Assembly (NCBI GenBank): GCA_017615355.1
Contig: JAGAAJ010000018.1
Location: 1-50,078 of the forward strand
Length of the DNA: 50,078 nt
From: Prevotella sp.
GTDB lineage: Bacteria > Bacteroidota > Bacteroidia > Bacteroidales > Bacteroidaceae
Direction of reading: 5' to 3'
Positions 17,959-29,222 of this stretch are shown here, in pieces. The notes beneath the pieces were generated by a model. That model worked only from the letters and a program-made list of their open reading frames with translations. It was not told the origin of the DNA and did not search any database. A program made the position numbers and the translations under genes. Within the stretch, counting starts at the first letter, position 1, and each line of letters begins with the position of its first letter.

Positions 17959-18018
17959 GAGTTAATTGTTTGCAATTTGAGTGCGAAATTAGTTAAAAAC
18001 TTTCAAACTAAAGCAATC
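17959..18018 (-). promoter_or_regulatory. Conserved promoter/leader block upstream of ino1
   Basis: These 60 bp match 26080-26139 at 53 of 60 positions without gaps. On the minus strand they contain TAATTTCG (17991-17984), a near-consensus -7 element, and a conserved TTGCTTTnGTTTGAA stretch in the -20 to -35 area. The leader is about 40 nt. Confidence 0.6.
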
Positions 18019-18098: not shown

Positions 18099-18133
18099 AA
18101 AAAATCCCTGAACTGCAAAAGCAATCCAGGGAT
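18099..18133 (-). terminator. Terminator of adhesin operon 1
   Basis: On the minus strand ATCCCTG ... CAGGGAT form a stem with inner TGC/GCA pairing, followed by a run of six T. The hairpin is essentially identical to that at 22426-22460. Confidence 0.8.
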
Positions 18134-18157
18134 AATGATATACAGAAGAGAATCAGT

Positions 18158-18346
18158 TTACCAATCGAATCCCAAATCAAGGATGTCGAAATCTCCTTCG
18201 CGGCTGCCAGGGGTATTACCACCGCCACCATAGCCAACGTCGCCACTGTTCACGTCACCGGCTTTACTGGTAGTAGTGATCATCTGTTGCATATTGAGCT
18301 TTAATACCGTCATGGACGGTGTCAAATAATTCTTTTTCATTGTCAT
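18158..18346 (-). CDS. Microprotein of adhesin operon 1 (GGGG...DILDLGFDW family)
   Basis: This 62-residue protein starts 16 bp after the stop of the large adhesin gene on the same strand. The N-terminus MTMKKNYLTPSMTVLKL is followed by a Ser/Thr/Gly/Asp-rich middle with GGGG, and the protein ends DFDILDLGFDW. A paralogue of 58 residues occupies the same position after the second adhesin gene (22485-22661); the two share KKxYxxP, the tetraglycine and the C-terminal DILDLGxDW. There is no signal peptide or membrane segment. The conserved paralogue, position and terminator support a real gene. The function is unknown; it could be a small partner or regulator of the adhesin, or a peptide precursor. 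An alternative start is the ATG at 18340. Confidence 0.8.
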   Translation of the reverse strand: MTMKKNYLTPSMTVLKLNMQQMITTTSKAGDVNSGDVGYGGGGNTPGSREGDFDILDLGFDW

Positions 18347-18362
18347 GTTGTTTTTTGTGTTA

Positions 18363-21300
18363 TTACTTAATCACAACTTTTACACCGTTGTTAATGTACA
18401 GGCCCTTGCGAGTGGGTTGCTGGTCGAGCTTCTTGCCGTCAATAGTGTACCAATCGTTACGGATGGTTGCCTCACGGTCAGCATCCAAGATGCCCGTTAT
18501 TTCACCATCGCCGAAGATCATACGTGTAGTGAGAACCTTATCACCTGCCGTGATGCCGTGCAACGGGAAGTATGCGCGGAATGCCTTGATGGTCACAGCA
18601 GCATTGGGATAGTAGAGATTATCGTCGACACCAAGGAACAGCAGCGAGCGATCCTCACCCTCGGTGGTCAATGGGCTGTAGAGGCCTAAGAAGCTCACCT
18701 TACCGTCAGCGCTGAATACAGGCGTTGGGCTGGTACTCTTAATGGTCACATTTGCGAACTGAGGATTCTCAATGGTATTTGAGCCTTTAATGATATAAGG
18801 CATACCGGCTTCGATGCCGTTTGTTACCTCCTTGAAACTCAGGTTGAGTACGCCGCTTTCATCGTTGAAGTATGTGGCACTACTGTTGGTATTTAGCTCC
18901 TTTACAGTAACATCGCCCAGAGCACTACTACTTACGTTTGAAATATCGAAGGGCAAGCACAGAGCATTCCAAACACCGGTCAGGAACGAACGCTGGATGG
19001 TAACATGAGACTGTCTGCCGTAATTGTTGAGAAGTAGGCTGGTGTTGGAGGGATTATCCGAAAGCAGAACATCCTGCAGGGAAAGCAATGCGAACTCTCT
19101 TGGCTTGCTCCATTTTGTCGTTTCACCGCCCATGACACTCTGAACCTGATACTCATATGCATTGTTGGTAGCTAAACCGTTCAACGTAGCAGTAGCAGTA
19201 CCCACCGACAAGCTTTGCCATGATCCAGCGGTTGTAGGTGAATTGCAGATGACAATTTCGTCAACTAAGAAGTAATATTGATTATAAGAAGTACATTGAA
19301 TAGAAATGTATTTGACATCAGCTGGTAGTGACTGCTCATAGAGGTTCCACTGAGTGTTACTAACAGTAGTTTCTGCACTCCAGGTGAATGCATCAACATC
19401 ATTCGTCGTAGTTGAATAGCCCACCTTAAAGGATTCAGGACAAAGTGAGTGATAGTTACCACAATAGAAAGTCAGCGTAGCACCTGCTGCAATTCCGTTC
19501 AGTTTGGGAGAAATAAGGTATTGGGGGGAATTAGTAGTAGATCTGAATGCAAAAAGACCGTCCATAGCTCCACCACCGTTCTCCAAATTATAGGTAGTCC
19601 AATCGCCTTGTCCGCGTCCGAAGTCTTCGTAGAAGATTACTTCTGAATTGGCCATTGTTCTATACCGCACGTTGTAGCTGTCGCCACTAGCATCCCATGT
19701 GAGGACGGCTCCATCGGCCTTCAAATCTGCCACGATGTTAGTGGGCGTGGGACTGCAATCAACAGTATAAATGACGTTTTCGCTCAAGGGTCCCGTAGTG
19801 TTAATGATGTCCTCGCCATTCACATCCTGAACAATAATGTCGCCAACAAAATAATCATCGAAGAAACTTTCAGAATGCCACTCAAACCTGACAGGCCTGC
19901 CAGAGCATACTTCGAGCATACCCTTTACAATGCCGTTTGAGGCATTCTTAGGCACTGTCCAATTGGCAATGACTTCTCCCGTCACATTATCTACTACCAA
20001 GATGTATGAACCAAACCAGCCATTTTCATACGAACCCTCGTAATCATTCGCCTTAAGCTCATAGGCGATGTAGCACTTGTCCTCGTCAGAGCATTCAGTG
20101 CGGAAAAGGATTATGCTGCTCCAAGCACTCAGATCGTTATCATATTTTGCACGTACCTTAATCGCATACGCTGTTCCGCTTTGCAGACCTTCCAGCGTAT
20201 AGGGTTTTGTCGTAACTTCTGTTTCTGTGAAGTCCGTTTCACCCTCAGCCTTATAAGCCACCACCCATTTGGTGGCGGAGCCGTTATCCTTCCAGCTGAA
20301 TTTAACCGAGTTACAAGTCACATCACTATAAACTAATTCGGTAGGCGTAGGGAACTGCTCAGGCGTGGCAAAGCTTACGGCGTTGCTCCATAAACTTTGC
20401 TCAGTATCGCTGCAATAAGCCCGAACCTTTACGGTATAGGATGTGTTTTCCGTAAGGCCCATTGTATAGGGATTATTATGGACGGTAATCAGGTTTTCTT
20501 CGTCGTCGTTAATACAAATCTGCCACGTGTCCTGACCTTCCTCGCCAGGTGTCCAATTTAGCTGCACCGAGTTGTAAGTTATTTCACTAGCAACCAACCC
20601 TTTTGGTTTTTTACAGGATCTATATACATTAAAAGTGAAGTCATCAAGAACGAGGGAGGGAGCGTTTTCTTGATAGATATACTTGATGGCTATGCGTTTG
20701 GTTCCTACTGGGAAAGATTTTGAATATTCCTTCCATTCAGACGATGATACGCTTACCTCATCTCCGTATGTAAATTGGCTTGCATCGGCAACCGTCGCAT
20801 CAGTAGTATAGCCTATTAGGAACTTCTCATCCGGAGCACCGTAAACTGAAGTTTGGGTTCTTCTGCACCAGAAAGAAACATCAACAGCATCGTCGCCACT
20901 CATGAGTATTGGTGAAATCAAAGATCCGCTTTGCTCAAAAGCGAATAGGAATGCATACGAACTATTATGGTTTTCGTACGTTGTAATACCAGACCATTGA
21001 GAAGTATAATTGGCTATCCAGCCGTCTGCGGCTAGGTCATTGTTCTCAAAACCGTACTCATAAGGCAAGGTCACGCATTTGTAAGTGCTGAAGGTAACAG
21101 GACTAGACCATTCGCTGGCGTATCCGCCACCACAGTCAGCCTGTACCTGTACTTCGTATGTAACGCCTGCGTCCAAACCCTCAATCGTGAATGAAGCATT
21201 GGTGCTGCAACTCTCTACCGTCCAATCATCAGTGCCGCTTATTCTATAACGCACATTCCATGTATCAACATCCGAAATCCAGCTGACTACAGCACTCTCA

Positions 21301-21878
21301 TTGGTGATGGCCGAAATGGAAACTCCCATTGGCTTGGGACAGGAGGGGGGAACCATAAAGGTAAAATCATCAAGATAAAGGTAATAAGCTTTGTTATAGA
21401 TATACTTGATGGCAATGCGTTTAGTTCCAGCTGGGAATATGCGTTCAAATTCCAGCCAAGAGGTTGAAGCGGTCACCACATCACCGTAAGTGAAAGCACT
21501 GGCATCGGTAACCGTCTCATCGGTGGTATAACCAACCTGAAACTGTTCAACATAAGAGTCACTTTGTTTCTTATACCAGAAATAAACGTCAATACCATTG
21601 TCGGTCCCTGTGAAGATAGGTGACATTAAGTAAGCGCGCTGTTCATGATAATTAAAGCTAAAGCCATAAGAACCCGTTCTTGAGACACGGGGATCAATTG
21701 TGGTGAAATCAGAGGTAGCTCCTTGTAGCACCCAGCCGTCTGCGGACAGGTCATTGTTCTCAAAGCCGTACTCATAAGGCAGGGTCTGTTGTGCTTTCGC
21801 TCCTCCTAGGAAACAGAAAGTGGCGAGGAACGTCATTGCCGCCCTTGCCAAAAATCTTGAGTAAGATGTTCTTTTCAT
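18363..21878 (-). CDS. Large secreted fibronectin-III/jelly-roll adhesin 1
   Basis: The protein is 1171 residues from the ATG at 21878. The upstream frame to 21929 overlaps the -7 box, and the paralogue starts with the same MKRTSYSRF. A signal peptide ends AKA-QQ. Domains in order are: a jelly-roll (MAM/choice-of-anchor-like) module from 'YEYGFENNDL' to 'LDDFTF'; a fibronectin-III domain; a second jelly-roll; two fibronectin-III domains; a 107-residue module (C at 20075 to C at 19757) shared with adhesin 2; another jelly-roll with fibronectin remnants; and a beta-rich tail. The C-terminus (DWYTIDGKKLDQQPTRKG... VKVVIK) is the kind of conserved tail seen on Prevotella surface proteins. Probably a surface adhesin; the ligand and secretion route are not shown by sequence. 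Confidence 0.85.
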   Translation of the reverse strand: MKRTSYSRFLARAAMTFLATFCFLGGAKAQQTLPYEYGFENNDLSADGWVLQGATSDFTTIDPRVSRTGSYGFSFNYHEQRAYLMSPIFTGTDNGIDVYFWYKKQSDSYVEQFQVGYTTDETVTDASAFTYGDVVTASTSWLEFERIFPAGTKRIAIKYIYNKAYYLYLDDFTFMVPPSCPKPMGVSISAITNESAVVSWISDVDTWNVRYRISGTDDWTVESCSTNASFTIEGLDAGVTYEVQVQADCGGGYASEWSSPVTFSTYKCVTLPYEYGFENNDLAADGWIANYTSQWSGITTYENHNSSYAFLFAFEQSGSLISPILMSGDDAVDVSFWCRRTQTSVYGAPDEKFLIGYTTDATVADASQFTYGDEVSVSSSEWKEYSKSFPVGTKRIAIKYIYQENAPSLVLDDFTFNVYRSCKKPKGLVASEITYNSVQLNWTPGEEGQDTWQICINDDEENLITVHNNPYTMGLTENTSYTVKVRAYCSDTEQSLWSNAVSFATPEQFPTPTELVYSDVTCNSVKFSWKDNGSATKWVVAYKAEGETDFTETEVTTKPYTLEGLQSGTAYAIKVRAKYDNDLSAWSSIILFRTECSDEDKCYIAYELKANDYEGSYENGWFGSYILVVDNVTGEVIANWTVPKNASNGIVKGMLEVCSGRPVRFEWHSESFFDDYFVGDIIVQDVNGEDIINTTGPLSENVIYTVDCSPTPTNIVADLKADGAVLTWDASGDSYNVRYRTMANSEVIFYEDFGRGQGDWTTYNLENGGGAMDGLFAFRSTTNSPQYLISPKLNGIAAGATLTFYCGNYHSLCPESFKVGYSTTTNDVDAFTWSAETTVSNTQWNLYEQSLPADVKYISIQCTSYNQYYFLVDEIVICNSPTTAGSWQSLSVGTATATLNGLATNNAYEYQVQSVMGGETTKWSKPREFALLSLQDVLLSDNPSNTSLLLNNYGRQSHVTIQRSFLTGVWNALCLPFDISNVSSSALGDVTVKELNTNSSATYFNDESGVLNLSFKEVTNGIEAGMPYIIKGSNTIENPQFANVTIKSTSPTPVFSADGKVSFLGLYSPLTTEGEDRSLLFLGVDDNLYYPNAAVTIKAFRAYFPLHGITAGDKVLTTRMIFGDGEITGILDADREATIRNDWYTIDGKKLDQQPTRKGLYINNGVKVVIK

Positions 21879-21926
21879 TGTTGTTTGTTTAATTGAATTT
21901 TTTGTTTTTGATTTGCAATTTGGCTG

Positions 21927-21934
21927 CAAAATTA
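21927..21934 (-). promoter_or_regulatory. Predicted -7 element of adhesin operon 1
   Basis: TAATTTTG on the minus strand, about 45 nt before the ATG at 21878. The flanking sequence (TTTGCAATTTG, ATTCAAAC-AAAGCAA) aligns with the ino1 and adhesin 2 upstream regions with one gap. Confidence 0.6.
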
Positions 21935-21995
21935 GAAAAAATCATTCAAACAAAGCAAACAATATGTGTAGAAGTCACAACAAATCCAACGAGTG

Positions 21996-22022
21996 GAAAC
22001 AATTGCTTAAAAGATTGAGACA
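21996..22022 (-). promoter_or_regulatory. Shared upstream box, copy 2 (adhesin 1)
   Basis: On the plus strand GAAACAATTGCTTAAAAG followed by ATTGAGACA. It begins 62 bp upstream of the -7 element, matching the 61-bp spacing at the other two genes. Confidence 0.6.
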
Positions 22023-22066
22023 ATTGTGTAATGCATGTACCGTTATTCCTATTGCAGAATGAAAAA

Positions 22067-22165
22067 GAGCCTCTAAAATTTCCTGAAGAGCCTCCTTATT
22101 TTGCTAAAGAGCCTCCTTATTTTGCTGAGTAGCCTCCTTTTTTTCTCAGGAGCCTCCCCAGATTG
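22067..22165. repeat. 21-bp tandem repeat, about five units
   Basis: Units begin with GAGCCTC (or TAGCCTC) at 22067, 22088, 22109, 22130 and 22150. The second and third copies share GAGCCTCCTTATTTTGCT. On the minus strand each unit reads ...AAGGAGGCTC. It lies in the long gap between the two adhesin operons. A 66-codon minus-strand frame (22273-22073) reads through it as a basic heptad-like (RRLxSKI) series, but expression is unsupported. Confidence 0.7.
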
Positions 22166-22189
22166 CCACAAAGAATTGTTAAAATTGGA

Positions 22190-22370
22190 TTTTCTGACAA
22201 TTCTTACAATTCTTACACCTAAATATGCGCCCTCCATCAGACTAAAAGAACAAAAGTTTGCATAATAATACAATTAATATACTATAAAAATAGTATAAAC
22301 TATTCTTATTTTCTTCTTCTTTTGTGGTAGTAGTGTGTATTTTTTACTAATTGTAAGAATTGTCAGAAAA
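22190..22370. repeat. 181-bp segment bounded by perfect 22-bp inverted repeats
   Basis: Arms 22190-22211 and 22349-22370 are exact reverse complements (core TTCTGACAATTCTTACAA), with 137 bp between. The inside is A/T-rich and includes a small palindrome TACTAT-AAAA-ATAGTA. It lies between the terminator of operon 2 and the promoter region of operon 1. The dimensions resemble Bacteroidales invertible segments, or a MITE. No clear target-site duplication flanks it, and no consensus promoter is visible inside. Confidence 0.7.
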
Positions 22371-22425
22371 AGTATTTCAGGCCTCCAAAAACCCTTTCCC
22401 AACGGAACCTCCGCAGCAAAAACAC

Positions 22426-22460
22426 GAAAAATCCCTGAACTGCAAAAGCAATCCAGGGAT
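22426..22460 (-). terminator. Terminator of adhesin operon 2
   Basis: The hairpin (ATCCCTG 22431-22437, CAGGGAT 22454-22460) has a T-tract on the minus strand. The surrounding 90 bp, including the 3' end of the microprotein gene, are nearly identical to 18099-18190. Confidence 0.8.
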
Positions 22461-22484
22461 AATGATATGCAAAAGCGAATCAGT

Positions 22485-22661
22485 TTACCAATCTAATCCC
22501 AAGTCAAGGATGTCGCAATCGCGTGACAATTGGCCGCCGCCTCCTACCTCATCGATGGCTTGGGGGCCATCAGCAGGACTTCCAGTACCCAGCAGGTACT
22601 CTGACTTTATGTTCACCACCTCTGTCTCAGGTGACATGTATGCTTTCTTATTCATTGTCAT
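22485..22661 (-). CDS. Microprotein of adhesin operon 2 (GGGG...DILDLGLDW family)
   Basis: Fifty-eight codons run from the ATG at 22661, 15 bp after the adhesin 2 stop, to a TAA at 22487-22485. I read it directly as MTMNKKAYMSPETEVVNIK at the N-terminus, then a Gly/Asp-rich middle with GGGG, ending CDILDLGLDW. It is the paralogue of the 62-residue protein at 18158-18346, and the 3' ends of both genes and their terminators are nearly identical in DNA. It carries one cysteine, which the other lacks. There is no signal peptide. Function unknown; the conserved gene order says it works with, or is expressed with, the preceding adhesin. Confidence 0.8.
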   Translation of the reverse strand: MTMNKKAYMSPETEVVNIKSEYLLGTGSPADGPQAIDEVGGGGQLSRDCDILDLGLDW

Positions 22662-22676
22662 GTTGTTTTTATGTTA

Positions 22677-25600
22677 TTACTTAATCACGACCTTATTGCC
22701 GTTCTGGATATACAGTCCCTTACGAGTGGGCTGCTTGTTGAGTTTCTTGCCGTCAACGGTGAACCAATCGTTATTAGTTGTTGTTTCACGGTTGACATCA
22801 GCAATGCCTGTGGTTTCATCATAGCCAGGCAGAGCGAGGAACGAGCGTGTTCCGGCAGGCACGGCCAGATAGGCCTTGTGTGCACCGCTTGTGAAAGCAG
22901 CACCGTTGTCAACGCCCCAATACCAGCCAATGTTCTCGCCGCTCTTGTCATAGCTCAACATATAATACTTTCCGCCGCCTGTCGTCGTTGCTGCCACGTC
23001 GCTACCATGCAGCATATTATCTAAAGTGATGGGATCAGCTGTCTTTCCTGCGAGGAAGATAGGCTGCTGGCTTGCTGCTTCGGCAGATGCAATCTGCAAC
23101 AACACAGCAGTGGCAGCAGGCACCACTTCGCCGCCTTCAGCGATGGTCTCATACGTCAGTACTGACTCGTCCTTTGCAGTAACGATACGCGCAACCATGT
23201 CCTCGGGCAGCACCACATCGCGCTGACTATTATAATATGTAGCGAAGCCCTCCTTGGCGAAGTTCAGGAACAATCCCTCCAAGTTTGCATCCTGGTTGAT
23301 ATCAAGTCCATGCAGGGGCAGGAAGGGCAAAGTGCCAGTAGCGGCACTTCCGCTGAAGGTGCCGGCAGGAACTTCAGAGCTGTAGGTAATCGTTCCTGAT
23401 GCGGCAACCTTTATGAAGGCGCCCTCGCCAGGAGCCAGTACCACAGCGTTCTTATAGACTTCGAAGCCGTCACCTGCTGCGTTCATCTTATAGAAAGAAG
23501 CATCTTTGCTATAACTGATATAGCCATTGCAGGTGAATGGATTACCCACCAATGCCCATCCATTGAACGGGTTGGTGGAGGTGGCATCGTAGGTAACATC
23601 AGCAGTATTGGTGCTGTTATAGCTTGAAGGAGCTGTTCCCGTGAAGTCTAATGTCTTGTCTTCCTTGTTTGCGCAAAGATAGCCATTAAGGTATTTTAAG
23701 CCAATATTGTCACCTGCAACGAATGCACTTTGTTGGCGGTTTGCCTCGTAATTAATCCATTCAAGGTCTTCAGTGGCGTCAAAGCCAAAGAGGTCATAGT
23801 CACCTTTAGCCAAATCTCCAACATAACTCCACGTAGAGCCATCACTTCCTACAAAAGTGACACCGGTGAATGGACTGGCAATGAGGTTATATTTGCCTTC
23901 GCCATCGCCATAACCAGAGATATTCTTATTCATCGTTACCCTTAAGGTGGCAGTCTTGTGTTTTAACTGACCGCCATCCTCAATGGTGATGCTACCGCCA
24001 TCGATAGTGGCTTTACCAGCACAGGCTACTACACCAGCGGGAATGGTGGCATCGGCTTTAATACGCACATTATTATTAATAGTGGGAAGTGCTGTTACAG
24101 CATTTCCGTCTACGTCCGTCCAATTGGCAACTCTATTCCAGTCGCCATCGTTTGAAAAGACAAGCATATCGTCCTTTGTTTTGAAGAAGGATGAGGCGAT
24201 TTTGCTTTCTTCACCTGGGCCACAAATGCCCTTCACCTGCCATGCATATGGTGTATTGGGGGTCAAGCCTGTGGCTGTGTAAGAAGTAGCGGTGAGGGGG
24301 ACCTCAACAAGGTCAGTCTCAGCAGAGACATATACTGCAAAGTTCTCAGCAGGATAGTTCGGGTCTTGGCCTTTTGCTACGAAACTGATGCTACCGCCCA
24401 GTTGGATGCCAGAGATAATCATCCAGTTGTCAGGGCTGAGGGCACCAACACCTGTAACCCAACTTGCTGACGAGACACTATAAGTTCCATTGCCAGTAAG
24501 ATTGTTTTGGTCATCTTTACCGTTCGTACGAATGCCCCATTGGTAACCGTCACCATCCAAATCCATATTCGTGATTTCGGAAGGAATAGTGCCATTTTCA
24601 AAGTCTTGGGTGTAGACGGTTGTTCCAACAGCATTTTTTACGACAATGTCGTCCACATTAAGCATGAACATGTCGCTCACATCATAGTGGCGTATGGCGA
24701 TAGAGCCCATTCCGCTGTATTCACTGAGGTCATAGGTGTAGGTGGTCAAAGTTGCAGTGGCTTGTTGGTCTTCACCCACCTGATGCCAAGGACGGTATTG
24801 GAGCAGGTAGCTGTCGTTGGTGCCTTCCCAACTCAGCTTTGTAGTAGTGGTTCCTATTTCAGTAACAGCAAGGTTTTTGGGCTTTGCGCAAGTGGCAACG
24901 ATGCAATCAACAGTATAAAGGACGTCTGCATTCAAAGCTCCAGTTGTGTTAATGATATCCTCGCCATTCACATCCTGAACAATAATATCGCCAATAAAAT
25001 AGTTGTCGAAACCGCCTGAATACCACACAAACCTGAGAGGCCTGCCAGAGCATACTTGGAGCGAGCCTGTAACAATACCATCTTCGGTATCCTCAGGCAC
25101 TGTCCAATAATCTATGATCTCTTCCGTCTCTTCATCGAGAACAAAAAGATATGAATCATACCAGCCATAAGCATAAGAACCATTGTAGGCTTTTGCGTTA
25201 AGCTTATAAGTGATATAGCACTTGTCCAAGTCAGTGCAGTCAGTGCGGAAAATGATTTCGCGACTCCAGTCACTAAGAATGTTGTCATTTTTTGCACGTA
25301 CTTTAATAGTATAGGCTGTTCCGGCTTGCAGACTTTCCAGCGTATAGGGATTTGTCGTAACCTCTATTTCTGTGAAGTCCGTTTCACCCTCAGCCTTATA
25401 AGCCACCACCCATTTTGTAGCTGCACCCATTTCTTTCCAACTAAGTTTGACCGAGTTGCTAGTAACATCGTCAGGGGCTAAGGGGATGGGCTTGGGGATT
25501 GCATCGGTTTCGGTAAAGCCGAAGTCATCAACAAACAATCTATATTGATAGCTGGAATAATAATAGATTGCTACATACTTAGTACCAGCAGGAATAATGA

Positions 25601-26054
25601 ATTTTTCAGATTGTGTCCAAGTAGTACTCTTTGTTGATATTTCATCTCCGAAGGTGAAACTTGTTATATTAGCGTCAGTTGCAGAGTAACCTACTTTGAA
25701 TTTTTCCGTGCCTTTGGAGTCGGAAGCTTTATAGTAGAACTGCAATGCAATGCCTGAAGTAGTACTTAATTCTGGAGAAATCAGATACTGGTCATAAGAA
25801 CTATCACTGGAGTAAGAAGAGAACCGGAATCCATAGTCGCCATCATGTTTCGCAGCATAAGTAATACCGAATTCAGATTCGTTAGCAGTACTTTCGTTTA
25901 CAGTAGTCCAGCCTTCTCCGGCCAGGTCGTTGTTTTCAAAGCCATACGAATAGGGTAAGGCTTTTTGTGCTTTCGCTCCCCCCAGGAAGCAGAACGCGGC
26001 GAGGAGGGCCATTGCCGCCCGCGCCAGAAATCTTGAGTAAGATGTTCTTTTCAT
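22677..26054 (-). CDS. Large secreted fibronectin-III/cleaved-adhesin protein 2
   Basis: This 1125-residue protein starts MKRTSYSRF and has a signal peptide ending AKA-QK. It contains: an N-terminal jelly-roll ('YSYGFENNDLAGEGW' to 'VDDFGF'); a fibronectin-III domain closely matching one in adhesin 1; the 106-residue shared module (24903-25220); a split fibronectin-like region enclosing a domain with 'DLDGDGYQWGI ... SPDNWMI', which resembles the cleaved-adhesin/hemagglutinin domain of gingipains; then a long beta-rich part ('GDWNRVANWTDVDGNAV', 'YNLIASPFTGVTF'). The C-terminus is a DWFTVDGKKLNKQPTRKG... KVVIK tail. Probably a surface adhesin that binds host or diet polymers. It is first in an operon with the microprotein gene; operon 1 is a diverged copy. 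Confidence 0.85.
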   Translation of the reverse strand: MKRTSYSRFLARAAMALLAAFCFLGGAKAQKALPYSYGFENNDLAGEGWTTVNESTANESEFGITYAAKHDGDYGFRFSSYSSDSSYDQYLISPELSTTSGIALQFYYKASDSKGTEKFKVGYSATDANITSFTFGDEISTKSTTWTQSEKFIIPAGTKYVAIYYYSSYQYRLFVDDFGFTETDAIPKPIPLAPDDVTSNSVKLSWKEMGAATKWVVAYKAEGETDFTEIEVTTNPYTLESLQAGTAYTIKVRAKNDNILSDWSREIIFRTDCTDLDKCYITYKLNAKAYNGSYAYGWYDSYLFVLDEETEEIIDYWTVPEDTEDGIVTGSLQVCSGRPLRFVWYSGGFDNYFIGDIIVQDVNGEDIINTTGALNADVLYTVDCIVATCAKPKNLAVTEIGTTTTKLSWEGTNDSYLLQYRPWHQVGEDQQATATLTTYTYDLSEYSGMGSIAIRHYDVSDMFMLNVDDIVVKNAVGTTVYTQDFENGTIPSEITNMDLDGDGYQWGIRTNGKDDQNNLTGNGTYSVSSASWVTGVGALSPDNWMIISGIQLGGSISFVAKGQDPNYPAENFAVYVSAETDLVEVPLTATSYTATGLTPNTPYAWQVKGICGPGEESKIASSFFKTKDDMLVFSNDGDWNRVANWTDVDGNAVTALPTINNNVRIKADATIPAGVVACAGKATIDGGSITIEDGGQLKHKTATLRVTMNKNISGYGDGEGKYNLIASPFTGVTFVGSDGSTWSYVGDLAKGDYDLFGFDATEDLEWINYEANRQQSAFVAGDNIGLKYLNGYLCANKEDKTLDFTGTAPSSYNSTNTADVTYDATSTNPFNGWALVGNPFTCNGYISYSKDASFYKMNAAGDGFEVYKNAVVLAPGEGAFIKVAASGTITYSSEVPAGTFSGSAATGTLPFLPLHGLDINQDANLEGLFLNFAKEGFATYYNSQRDVVLPEDMVARIVTAKDESVLTYETIAEGGEVVPAATAVLLQIASAEAASQQPIFLAGKTADPITLDNMLHGSDVAATTTGGGKYYMLSYDKSGENIGWYWGVDNGAAFTSGAHKAYLAVPAGTRSFLALPGYDETTGIADVNRETTTNNDWFTVDGKKLNKQPTRKGLYIQNGNKVVIK

Positions 26055-26079
26055 GTTTTTGATGGTTTGGTTAATAATT

Positions 26080-26139
26080 GAGTTAATTGCTTACAATATG
26101 AGCGCAAAGTTAGTTAAAAACTTTCAAACCAAAGCAATC
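26080..26139 (-). promoter_or_regulatory. Promoter/leader block of adhesin operon 2
   Basis: This contains TAACTTTG (26112-26105), a consensus -7 element, and the conserved TTGCTTTGGTTTGAA stretch. It is 88% identical to the ino1 block at 17959-18018. The leader is about 47 nt. Confidence 0.65.
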
Positions 26140-26172
26140 GGACACGTACAAATTTAAATGAATTTGACAAAT

Positions 26173-26200
26173 GAAACAATTGTGTAAAAGATTGAGACAT
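26173..26200 (-). promoter_or_regulatory. Shared upstream box, copy 3 (adhesin 2)
   Basis: On the plus strand GAAACAATTGTGTAAAAG followed by ATTGAGACAT. It begins 61 bp upstream of the -7 element. Nineteen of the first 27 or so positions are obviously shared with copy 2, while copy 1 keeps the CAATTG and GAGACA ends. Confidence 0.6.
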
Positions 26201-27011: not shown

Positions 27012-29222
27012 TTAGAACTGATAGCGGTTGTCTGTCAGCCCAGCCTTTTCGGCAAGCACTTCCCAGAAGCTGGTGAAAGGATTCTGGTGGATGGGTCTGC
27101 CGCTTCTGTCAGTCAGGGGATTGCCTGCGATGTCGGTCTTGGTCGGCGTTACGATCCAAACCTGATTGCGAATCAGGTCGGTCTCCACGGCGCGACGGTC
27201 GAAGGTTCTTGCAGAGTCAGTCTCACAGCTGTCCACCTTGAAGAAGTAGACACCATTGGCACCCTTGAAAGGCTTCTTAGCGTTCTGTCCCACGGCTGTT
27301 GCGGCGATGGCACCGTCAAGACCGCGTTCTCCCATATTCATCACGGGGAGGGTTGCAGGGAAGCCTACGCTGCTGAGGGTCGTCGATGTGCCGCCCTTCT
27401 GCTCAGCCTGTTCCACTGTGGTAACACCAGCCAGCTTCTTCAGCAGGATGTCGGCCTTCTTGTCCTTGATCACCTCGGCACGGAGAATCTGCTCTGCGCC
27501 CTTGATGTCAAGATAGCCCACGGGGTTGATCTTCGTCACAGCTGCAACCATGAAGCGGCCCTCGGCGGGATCACGGTAGATCTCAGAGATGCTGCCTTCC
27601 TCAGCCTTGGCGAAAGCCCATTTCACGGCGTCGCGAGTATTGGTCAGAGCCACAGGAGTGCCGATGGCGCTGGCGTCGCTGAGCAGGTTCTTCTGCTCCT
27701 GGATCTCAAAGCCAGCCTGAGCGGCTTTCTTCTCCAAGTCAGTAGCATTGGAGCAGGAGCTCACGTATGCGCTGAAGTTGTTATAGGTATTGTCCTCAGT
27801 CTCAGAGGAAGGACGAATCTCGTTGCTGATAATAGCTACGTCGTAGAGGGTGCTTACCTTACGCTCGGTGACCTTGAATATCAGCACACCGTTGGTGATG
27901 GCAACGCGCTGCAGCTCGTTGACCTTGGCGGGACGGACAGCTGCGATGATAGCCTTCGTTTCGGCATCGATGTTGGTTCTGCCCTGATAGACATCGGCGC
28001 TGAGCCACATGTCACCCTTCTGCAGGCTCATCTTGTTGACGAGGGTGTCGATATCTGTGCCAGCGTTGATGACGTTGATGATGCTGTCGGCACGCTTCTC
28101 GACATCGTTGGCGGTAGCGGGAAGGGCGATGAACTCGAAGTGGATGGAGTCTACGTCCTGATAGCGACGGTTCAGACGAGCGATAGCCATGCTCTCGATG
28201 GGCTTGTTGGCACTCATGGTCATGTAACGGAAGGGAGCGGTAACGGTGCTGTCCTTCATGTTGTCAAGACTGTCGAGCAGAGCTGCAGAGATGGCACGGA
28301 TGCCGTTCTTGTTGTAGGGACGGTCAGCGTGGTAGGGGATGGTGGAGCGATGCATAGCAACGACAGTCTCAATCTTAGCGCTGTCGTTGTTGAACTGATC
28401 GGCAGCCTCCAGCAGGCTGTTGGTCAGGTTCTCCATATCGGCATCAGAGGGCTGCACCTTGCACACCACGTACTTGATGTCGCGAGTCTCCTTGTTCCAC
28501 TTGAACTGCTCCTTCATCTCCTCGTACTTAGCCTTCAGGTCGGCCTCGCTCACCTGCACCTCGTTGTCGTTGATGGAGGCGTAGGGGAAAGCAACCACCG
28601 TTACGTCCTTTAAGGTATTGCCACCTTCGAAGGACACCTTGGCTGAGTATTCGTTGCTGAGCATGCAGGCCTGCAGCAGGGTCAGATACTTCTCGCGAAG
28701 CAGATTCTGACGCAGCATCTTCTCAATCATGTTCCAATAGGCGTCGAAGTCCTTGAAACGCTCAGGATCCTGCTGCTTCATGCTTGCGTAGGCCTGGGCC
28801 ACATAGTTGTGGTCGAACTCGCCGGCCTGATTAAAGAATTCCTGCGGCATGAACTGACGGGGCAGGGCAGGATGGTTGGGCATAGCCAGCACGGCTTTGA
28901 TCTCTTCGTCGGTGACGCCGAGGCCGAGCTTTGCACACTCTTCCTCCAATACGGTGTTCTTCACGAAGTCATCCCATACCAGGTTGCGGACTAATTCCTC
29001 ATTCACGTCTTTTCCAAACAAGGCCTTGTACTCTTCCGAGCGCTGCTGAAGGTCTTGGATAGAAAGCTTTTCGCCCAATACTTTTCCTACTTGCTGGCGA
29101 GCCTGATTGCTCGAGGTCTCGCACTGCCTTGTAAAGTCAGTTGCAATGAAGCCGAACAAAGCCAGGCCGATGATACCCACCAGCCAAGGACCCCAGCTTC
29201 TGATTTTTCCAATTGCTGCCAT
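27012..29222 (-). CDS. PpiD/SurA-like membrane-anchored peptidyl-prolyl isomerase
   Basis: This 736-residue protein has one N-terminal membrane anchor (WGPWLVGIIGLALFGFIATD) and a large periplasmic part. The SurA_N-like helical region spans about residues 40-230 ('VGKVLGEKLSIQDLQQRSEEYKALFG' pattern), and parvulin-like regions follow at about 340-470 and beyond. This is the layout of PpiD chaperones, which fold newly exported outer membrane proteins. The gene order PpiD-like, CorC-like, lptC, OMP on one strand is an envelope-biogenesis cluster common in Bacteroidales. Parvulin catalytic residues are not clearly recognisable, so chaperone activity may dominate. Confidence 0.85.
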   Translation of the reverse strand: MAAIGKIRSWGPWLVGIIGLALFGFIATDFTRQCETSSNQARQQVGKVLGEKLSIQDLQQRSEEYKALFGKDVNEELVRNLVWDDFVKNTVLEEECAKLGLGVTDEEIKAVLAMPNHPALPRQFMPQEFFNQAGEFDHNYVAQAYASMKQQDPERFKDFDAYWNMIEKMLRQNLLREKYLTLLQACMLSNEYSAKVSFEGGNTLKDVTVVAFPYASINDNEVQVSEADLKAKYEEMKEQFKWNKETRDIKYVVCKVQPSDADMENLTNSLLEAADQFNNDSAKIETVVAMHRSTIPYHADRPYNKNGIRAISAALLDSLDNMKDSTVTAPFRYMTMSANKPIESMAIARLNRRYQDVDSIHFEFIALPATANDVEKRADSIINVINAGTDIDTLVNKMSLQKGDMWLSADVYQGRTNIDAETKAIIAAVRPAKVNELQRVAITNGVLIFKVTERKVSTLYDVAIISNEIRPSSETEDNTYNNFSAYVSSCSNATDLEKKAAQAGFEIQEQKNLLSDASAIGTPVALTNTRDAVKWAFAKAEEGSISEIYRDPAEGRFMVAAVTKINPVGYLDIKGAEQILRAEVIKDKKADILLKKLAGVTTVEQAEQKGGTSTTLSSVGFPATLPVMNMGERGLDGAIAATAVGQNAKKPFKGANGVYFFKVDSCETDSARTFDRRAVETDLIRNQVWIVTPTKTDIAGNPLTDRSGRPIHQNPFTSFWEVLAEKAGLTDNRYQF

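Follow-up and report, generated by a model that had tools for sequence, protein, structure and literature searches.

Effectors of the type IX secretion system (T9SS) are described as outnumbering those of any other secretion system per genome in PMC10202324. In Prevotella intermedia, PMC11969387 describes short C-terminal domains (CTDs) of 43-55 amino acids (aa) at the extreme C-terminus of the cargo, with a cleavage consensus PT/GI, a motif B with Tyr, Gly, and a basic residue, a motif D with GxY and Ile, and a motif E consisting of a basic C-terminus. The same paper gives distances of 6-11 aa from cleavage site to motif B and 1-6 aa from motif B to D, against 19-30 and 10-17 aa in long CTDs. 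Here, we analyze two tandem units on the minus strand of a 50 078-nucleotide (nt) stretch of a Prevotella sp. genome (contig JAGAAJ010000018.1; the whole stretch is referred to as the window), each of which encodes a large protein, predicted to be T9SS cargo with a short CTD, and a microprotein of 58 or 62 aa. This microprotein belongs to a family that is unnamed in Pfam and NCBIfam; in related genera, too, genes of this family immediately follow genes for short-CTD cargo, irrespective of the domains that the cargo contains.

The words ‘operon’, ‘downstream’, and ‘small protein’ are absent from the main text of PMC11969387, and a microprotein partner is undescribed in the parts examined. Among the surveyed literature listings, no title or abstract start describes such a CTD-gene-linked microprotein. 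A gene of this kind follows many genes for predicted secreted proteins in related bacteria and may have been overlooked as a contributor to cell-surface production, and the partner would provide a new handle on the making or control of T9SS surface proteins.

Other described systems resemble parts of this arrangement. Cleaved_Adhesin domains of the gingipain type (K1-K3) are found in Porphyromonas gingivalis, and the unit B protein shows likeness to them (PF07675); unlike the gingipains, it has no protease domain among its Pfam matches, is paired with a microprotein, and also contains FN3. Some relatives of the microprotein adjoin genes for fimbrillin-like lipoproteins of Bacteroidales (Mfa_like_1, PF13149), mostly just upstream of them, whereas the partners in the window are CTD cargo and the microprotein lies downstream of its partner. 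The Mfa_like (fimbrillin) domain gave no match in the four window proteins at an expect value (E) of ≤1.

The two units and their predicted cargo

The genes and sorting signals of the two units are as follows (coordinates are those of the window).

22677..26054, minus strand: unit B large secreted protein, 1125 aa, with signal peptide, choice-of-anchor J / Cleaved_Adhesin, FN3, and short CTD; predicted T9SS cargo
22680..22808, minus strand: unit B short T9SS CTD, 43 aa, from TT/GI to VVIK
22485..22661, minus strand: unit B microprotein, 58 aa, 15 nt behind the large gene
18363..21878, minus strand: unit A large secreted protein, 1171 aa from ATG, with signal peptide, FN3 (4 stretches), and short CTD; predicted T9SS cargo
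18366..18494, minus strand: unit A short T9SS CTD, 43 aa, from IT/GI to VVIK
18158..18346, minus strand: unit A microprotein, 62 aa, 16 nt behind the large gene

Both units have the identical order of promoter, large secreted-protein gene, 15-16 nt, microprotein gene, and terminator. This confirms the initial annotation, which was made from the sequence of this stretch and listed an upstream box, a −7 element, a secreted protein of 1125-1171 residues, a gap of 15-16 nt, a protein of 58-62 aa, and a near-identical terminator. It had further described the domain order as diverged with the ends and the small gene conserved, which holds for the domain order and the C-terminus; the small gene does not fit, with microproteins A and B sharing only 42% identity. 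Signal peptide and C-terminus are common to the two large proteins, as is a block of 258 residues at 57% identity, and their domain order differs. We infer that units A and B arose through local duplication with domain shuffling.

A range of features led us to predict both large proteins as T9SS cargo with a short CTD. Hydropathy indicates a Sec-type signal peptide at both N-termini (starting MKRTSYSRFLARAAM), with 12-residue maxima of 2.0 and 2.5. Pfam and NCBIfam scans identified FN3 in both proteins and Cleaved_Adhesin / choice-of-anchor J in unit B (PF07675, E=1e-24), where residues around 479-579 match the adhesin structures 3m1h and 4itc of Lys-gingipain (gingipain K). As in the P. intermedia cargo of PMC11969387, each protein ends in a C-terminal signal, here of 43 aa and within the published 43-55, with cleavage sites IT/GI (unit A) and TT/GI (unit B). 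The motifs B (WYTIDGKK in A, WFTVDGKK in B), D (GLYI), and E (KVVIK) are present, with Phe where Tyr is usual in motif B of unit B. The spacings of about 12 and 7 aa, with borders set by our own reading, slightly exceed the ranges given there and resemble those of short CTDs more than those of long ones. In some other microprotein partners, the GxN form of motif D, likewise reported in PMC11969387, was seen by eye. The genome encodes T9SS machinery, with matches to SprA_N (SprA/Sov; E=7e-211) and PorV (E=1e-127). The Pfam and NCBIfam matches (E≤1) to the window proteins included no T9SS sorting-domain model, and such models may miss short CTDs; given the lack of a curated sorting-domain match, short-CTD cargo may be under-annotated.

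Microprotein genes behind short-CTD genes

With the tail of the unit A protein as the query, 40 CTD-like places were found in the genome (E≤1; some may be chance). Behind the 30 of these that were fetched, a scan for ATG-initiated open reading frames (ORFs) identified three small ORFs of the MK(K)xYxxP type besides the two window genes. Profiles were constructed from five small ORFs (A2), seven members (A3), and 32 members (A4). In the genome containing the window, A2 gave seven matches at E≤1e-5, each 15-51 nt from the CTD gene that precedes it, plus a weak match (E=0.13) that has no partner; with A4 there were eight matches at E≤1e-4, all partnered, the eighth overlapping the stop codon of its CTD gene. 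By our own arithmetic, 40 CTD places in 3.25 Mb give a random site a chance of ∼0.25% of lying within 400 nt behind one of them on the same strand.

The same arrangement extends to related genomes. Across 40 genomes of the genus, our own included, A3 matched 91 times at E≤1e-3; 84 of the matches lie in genomes other than our own, and in 63 of these 84 a CTD gene recognized by a hidden Markov model (HMM) ends −4 to 233 nt upstream. The other 21, viewed by eye, comprise seven with variant CTD-like ends, three cut by a contig end within 170 nt, and 11 without a CTD. In a set of 61 genomes of the taxonomic family, all at least 90% complete except our own, A4 gave 113 matches at E≤1e-4; 106 were counted (seven of our own, already examined, were left out and one was kept), and 82 of them have a CTD gene upstream. 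About six of the remaining 24 have variant ends by eye, and three are cut off by a contig end within 45 nt. A partnered copy is found at least once in 23 of 26 positive genomes in the genus set (own left out) and 28 of 34 in the family set, and partnered copies are present in all 13 genera that have the microprotein family (22 genera sampled). The gap between the CTD gene and the microprotein gene has a median of 22 nt (n=145 partnered copies), with nine overlapping, 74 at 0-30 nt, 34 at 31-60, 15 at 61-100, and 13 above 100. A CTD gene followed by MKKxYxxP within about 60 nt can serve as a simple genomic marker.

A reverse control searched for the unit A protein in contigs of GTDB genomes and gave 26 loci, many from metagenome-assembled genomes of ruminant-gut Bacteroidaceae, Bacteroidales or Prevotella. 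Six of the 26 carry the microprotein 40-135 nt behind the CTD gene (L129, L130, L133, L135, L145, L154); in L152 there is a seventh microprotein match, preceded by a gene that lacks a CTD.

The cargo itself is diverse. Among the 63 partners in the genus set, 33 are complete (at least 200 aa) in the fetched DNA and 30 were scanned. These contain LRR_5 of BspA-type LRR proteins (four), C10 peptidase (two), cohesin (two), pectinesterase, FN3, and ubiquitin-like domains (one each), and InlB-type, Ig-like, MBG or carbohydrate-binding repeats (five); one has a match below its cut-off, and 13 have no Pfam match at E≤0.001. The partner class is short-CTD cargo, and what is constant is the secretion signal, not an adhesin. 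Specificity for FN3 adhesins was rejected, and the idea of an exported FN3/jelly-roll protein as the constant partner, which the initial annotation had put up for checking, is not supported, with FN3 in 1/30. Its proposal that adhesin and microprotein are selected as a functional unit is upheld as regards a recurrent linked unit (63/84 and 82/106) and purifying selection (27 of 28 pairs, see below), and was too narrow in naming an adhesin as the partner; it is directly behind CTD genes, and not away from such proteins, that most homologues were found. One predicted CTD cargo in a same-genus genome has an N-terminal ubiquitin-like domain (L107:818-3565; PF00240, E=1e-22).

Related microproteins tend to have related cargo. 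Among 139 of 152 gene pairs that have a cargo of at least 220 aa, with homology judged outside the CTD by BLASTP, cargo was homologous in 15 of 15 comparisons at ≥60% microprotein identity, 6 of 8 at 50-60%, 33 of 73 at 40-50%, and 543 of 6445 at 20-30%. Paired inheritance of this type is expected from joint duplication, and many of the comparisons are within one genome.

Presence of the T9SS and a second genomic context

Presence of the microprotein tracks the T9SS. SprA_N was found in 42 of the 61 family genomes, and the microprotein in 33 of these 42 and in one of the 19 others (Fisher p=5e-8, shared ancestry ignored). Counted by genus, it is present in 13 of 15 SprA-positive and none of seven SprA-negative genera (p=2e-4, again ignoring shared ancestry). 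The sole SprA-negative exception (G010) first looked like a counter-example to the link. It has 17 microprotein matches and a PorV match (E=1e-125) as strong as those in SprA-positive genomes, and it is likely that it has a T9SS; SprA may be absent from the assembly, perhaps through a gap, or the translocon is possibly divergent. This argument rests on match strength, as the PorV model also passes the cut-off in SprA-negative G002, where the match is weaker (E=1e-47). Outside the family, one of 58 genomes of the order has a microprotein match.

Relatives that lack a CTD partner were found in a different setting. When 12 unpartnered loci were viewed by eye, six adjoined lipoprotein genes, with L058, L059, L062, L169, and L214 just upstream and L106 downstream; L191 follows an apparently decayed CTD gene. 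In 18 genomes without a T9SS there are weak relatives only, with nine matches in six genomes at E≤0.5 (best 3.5e-4), and of the eight examined, six are just upstream of lipoprotein genes and two are not. A lipoprotein gene likewise follows the one match from outside the family. Relatives without a CTD partner beside lipoprotein genes, mostly just upstream, are seen at L262, L263, L264, L268, L269, L270, L058, L059, L062, L169, L214, L106, and L271. Mfa_like_1 (PF13149) was identified in four of nine adjoining lipoproteins scanned (L262, L263, L269, L106); the scan left out L268 and L270, and also L214, for which the fetched DNA gave too short a sequence. This lipoprotein linkage suggests a tie to surface proteins in general.

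Coding capacity and shape of the microprotein

The family is described by the logo MKKxY[ILM]xPxx[EK][VI][VI]x[LIV]....[ML][LI][AC]xS, followed by a variable middle and an acidic end. Most of the information content lies in the first ∼25 residues, with a fall immediately behind [LI][AC]xS, and the mean net charge is +1.3 over the first 25 residues and −5.5 over the remainder, which is variable, Gly-rich, and acidic. In 121 of 151 distinct partnered members there is a Trp among the final 20 residues; it is the last residue in both window proteins, which match the family profile at E=1.7e-27 and 4.7e-24, both having been among its seeds. The sequence DILDLGxDW, offered in the initial annotation as a search key, matched only this genome among 399 when used as a DNA pattern with up to one mismatch, and the family signature was moved to the N-terminus. 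The 3′ ends of the two microprotein genes are identical at 28 of 30 nt and the adjoining non-coding terminator region at 55 of 58 nt; because equal similarity runs into non-coding DNA, the shared DILDLGxDW appears to reflect common ancestry or conversion at the DNA level. A hand-made consensus peptide was also compared with viral contigs, where 14 stretches fitted the pattern and none was a relative.

The microprotein is under purifying selection. Among 33 pairs with at least 60% protein identity, a choice that lowers the values somewhat, the ratio of non-synonymous to synonymous substitution rates (dN/dS) was computable in 28 and was below 1 in 27 (range 0.08-0.62); the remaining pair gave 1.8 on seven changes. 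Third codon positions change most in most pairs.

A hydrophobic stretch of the strength of a Sec signal (12-residue mean ≥2.0) is present in 2 of 146 distinct partnered microproteins compared with 25 of 33 cargo proteins, and at a mean of ≥1.6 the counts are 16 of 146 and 27 of 33. In an AlphaFold model of the unit A microprotein (m086ba1de84c2), the first 20 residues have a predicted local distance difference test score (pLDDT) of about 77 and the rest lies in blocks of 47-56, with a predicted template modelling score of 0.18; the model would fit a tail that is probably disordered. The 32 A4 members gave no credible Pfam, NCBIfam or PHROG match, the sole PHROG match below 0.01 being phrog_3068 (E=0.0025, one member).

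Possible roles of the microprotein

The microprotein most likely serves surface-protein production as a non-Sec accessory expressed together with the cargo, or else is a peptide precursor that bears a leader. We place a probability of roughly one in two on the reading that each unit is an operon of one short-CTD T9SS cargo and one microprotein that acts as an accessory inside the cell. Cargo and microprotein would be made from one messenger RNA, with translational coupling where stop and start codons overlap. The cargo would pass through Sec, PorV would carry it and Sov export it, and after a cut by PorU at T/GI it would be anchored to the surface. The microprotein, having no Sec signal, would stay inside the cell as a small accessory of surface-protein production, and its conserved segment of ∼25 residues at the N-terminus may bind a shared element, tuning the output, targeting or export-competence of the surface protein encoded by the neighbouring gene. 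More tentatively, these mostly disordered, lineage-specific microproteins, encoded singly next to T9SS cargo genes and some genes for fimbrillin-like lipoproteins, might constitute a general, so far undescribed companion system for surface proteins in this bacterial family, either as cytoplasmic escorts or regulators or as co-secreted peptides set free from a common leader; such a system would predate the T9SS there or have outlived it.

Several observations weigh against the accessory reading. The association with SprA ignores shared ancestry, and the genera without a T9SS may be one or a few clades; nine of 42 SprA-positive genomes are without a microprotein match. Because CTD-adjacent members served as seeds of the family profiles, the linked subfamily is favoured; several genomes are fragmentary, and variant CTDs and lipoproteins were called by eye. 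Three well-assembled genomes of the same genus (G005, G056, G075) each have a single copy at E≤1e-4 without a CTD partner. At 33 of the 40 CTD-like places in our own genome no microprotein match follows, which means that T9SS export does not generally require the microprotein. The AlphaFold model was made from eight sequences and has a mean pLDDT of 59 with no secondary structure assigned. The linkage to lipoprotein genes, some of them in genomes lacking a T9SS, weakens a strictly T9SS-specific role.

The main alternative is a precursor peptide, which we consider less likely than the accessory, though the evidence separates the two poorly. It takes the first ∼25 residues as a leader ending near [M/L][L/I][A/C]xS that a transporter peptidase would cut, with the Gly-rich, acidic, Trp-bearing rest secreted or displayed beside the surface protein. 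The fall in information content right after [LI][AC]xS, the variable and acidic remainder, the confinement of pLDDT values of about 77 to the first 20 residues, and the linkage to both T9SS cargo and lipoproteins are all consistent with this. A conserved N-terminal segment followed by a variable, Gly-rich part is also the likeness to precursors with double-glycine leaders, whose pattern of hydrophobic positions differs from the spacing conserved here. Membership in that class was rejected, as at E≤1 none of the 32 A4 members matches a double-glycine leader model of Pfam or NCBIfam, and lasso_cyano (E=0.12, one member) was the sole peptide model to appear; there is no credible leader or bacteriocin family match for any A4 member in these databases. 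Nor was a dedicated transporter or processing gene noticed in the short flanks (about 1.5-4.5 kb), where no systematic search was made. If a precursor were nevertheless encoded, each genome would make several different surface-linked peptides, so far unsought as far as the literature searched shows.

Hitchhiking of a small selfish or neutral gene, co-duplicating with surface-protein genes by local recombination and having no functional tie to them, appears improbable. It would account for the homogenized DNA ends and duplicated promoter of the window units, for paired inheritance, which co-duplication alone could yield, and for the homologues without a CTD partner by HMM (21/84 and 24/106). 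It fits poorly with partnered copies in all 13 family-bearing genera, mostly with mutually non-homologous cargo by BLASTP, with two surface-protein classes as partners, with purifying selection on the microprotein, and with a presence that tracks T9SS genes. We regard it as very improbable that the small ORFs are untranslated and that what is conserved is a 3′ untranslated region or an RNA element before the terminator: the 3′ end of the window ORFs is indeed as conserved as the non-coding terminator, and against this stand open frames with a common protein profile across genera, the predominance of third-position changes, dN/dS values below 1 in 27 of 28 pairs, and start codons that overlap cargo stops in 9 of 145 cases.

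Promoters, terminators, and surrounding DNA

The remaining elements of the two units are listed below.

26173..26199, minus strand: upstream box, unit B, TGTCTCAATCTTTTACACAATTGTTTC
26105..26112, minus strand: −7-like element, unit B, TAACTTTG
22431..22460, minus strand: unit B intrinsic terminator, 13-bp stem
21996..22022, minus strand: upstream box, unit A
21927..21934, minus strand: −7-like element, unit A, TAATTTTG
18104..18133, minus strand: unit A intrinsic terminator, 13-bp stem
17983..18008, minus strand: copy of the unit B promoter core, before the inositol-phosphate synthase gene downstream of unit A; a sign of local duplication

The −7-like element of unit B is of the Bacteroidota TAnnTTTG type. 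The two-part Bacteroidota promoter pattern with a 19-nt spacer had no match within the window, and therefore only a −7-like element is claimed. In an assembly of 89.7% completeness, the 26-nt promoter core (≤3 mismatches) occurs at two sites, one ahead of unit B and the other ahead of the myo-inositol-1-phosphate synthase gene downstream of unit A; the unit A version is more diverged. The core is not private to the operons, and a regulon was rejected with both genome sites being local. A terminator pattern scan of the region was near chance overall (nine found, 7.2 expected), with the two unit terminators having the longest stems in the scan (13 pairs) and folding z-scores of −4.9 and −5.9 relative to shuffled sequences. 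The same scan found no terminator-like site in the 15-16 nt between large and small gene in either unit.

Between the units (window 22064-22144 and 22190-22370) there are three direct repeat copies with 21-nt spacing, AAAGAGCCTCCTTATTTTGCT-like, together with an inverted repeat of 22 nt whose arms match perfectly and are separated by 137 nt. A gene for a SurA/PpiD-like periplasmic folding factor (SurA_N_2, rotamase; window 27012-29222) is located near the adhesin operons on the same strand, and is separated from them by an endonuclease III gene on the opposite strand.

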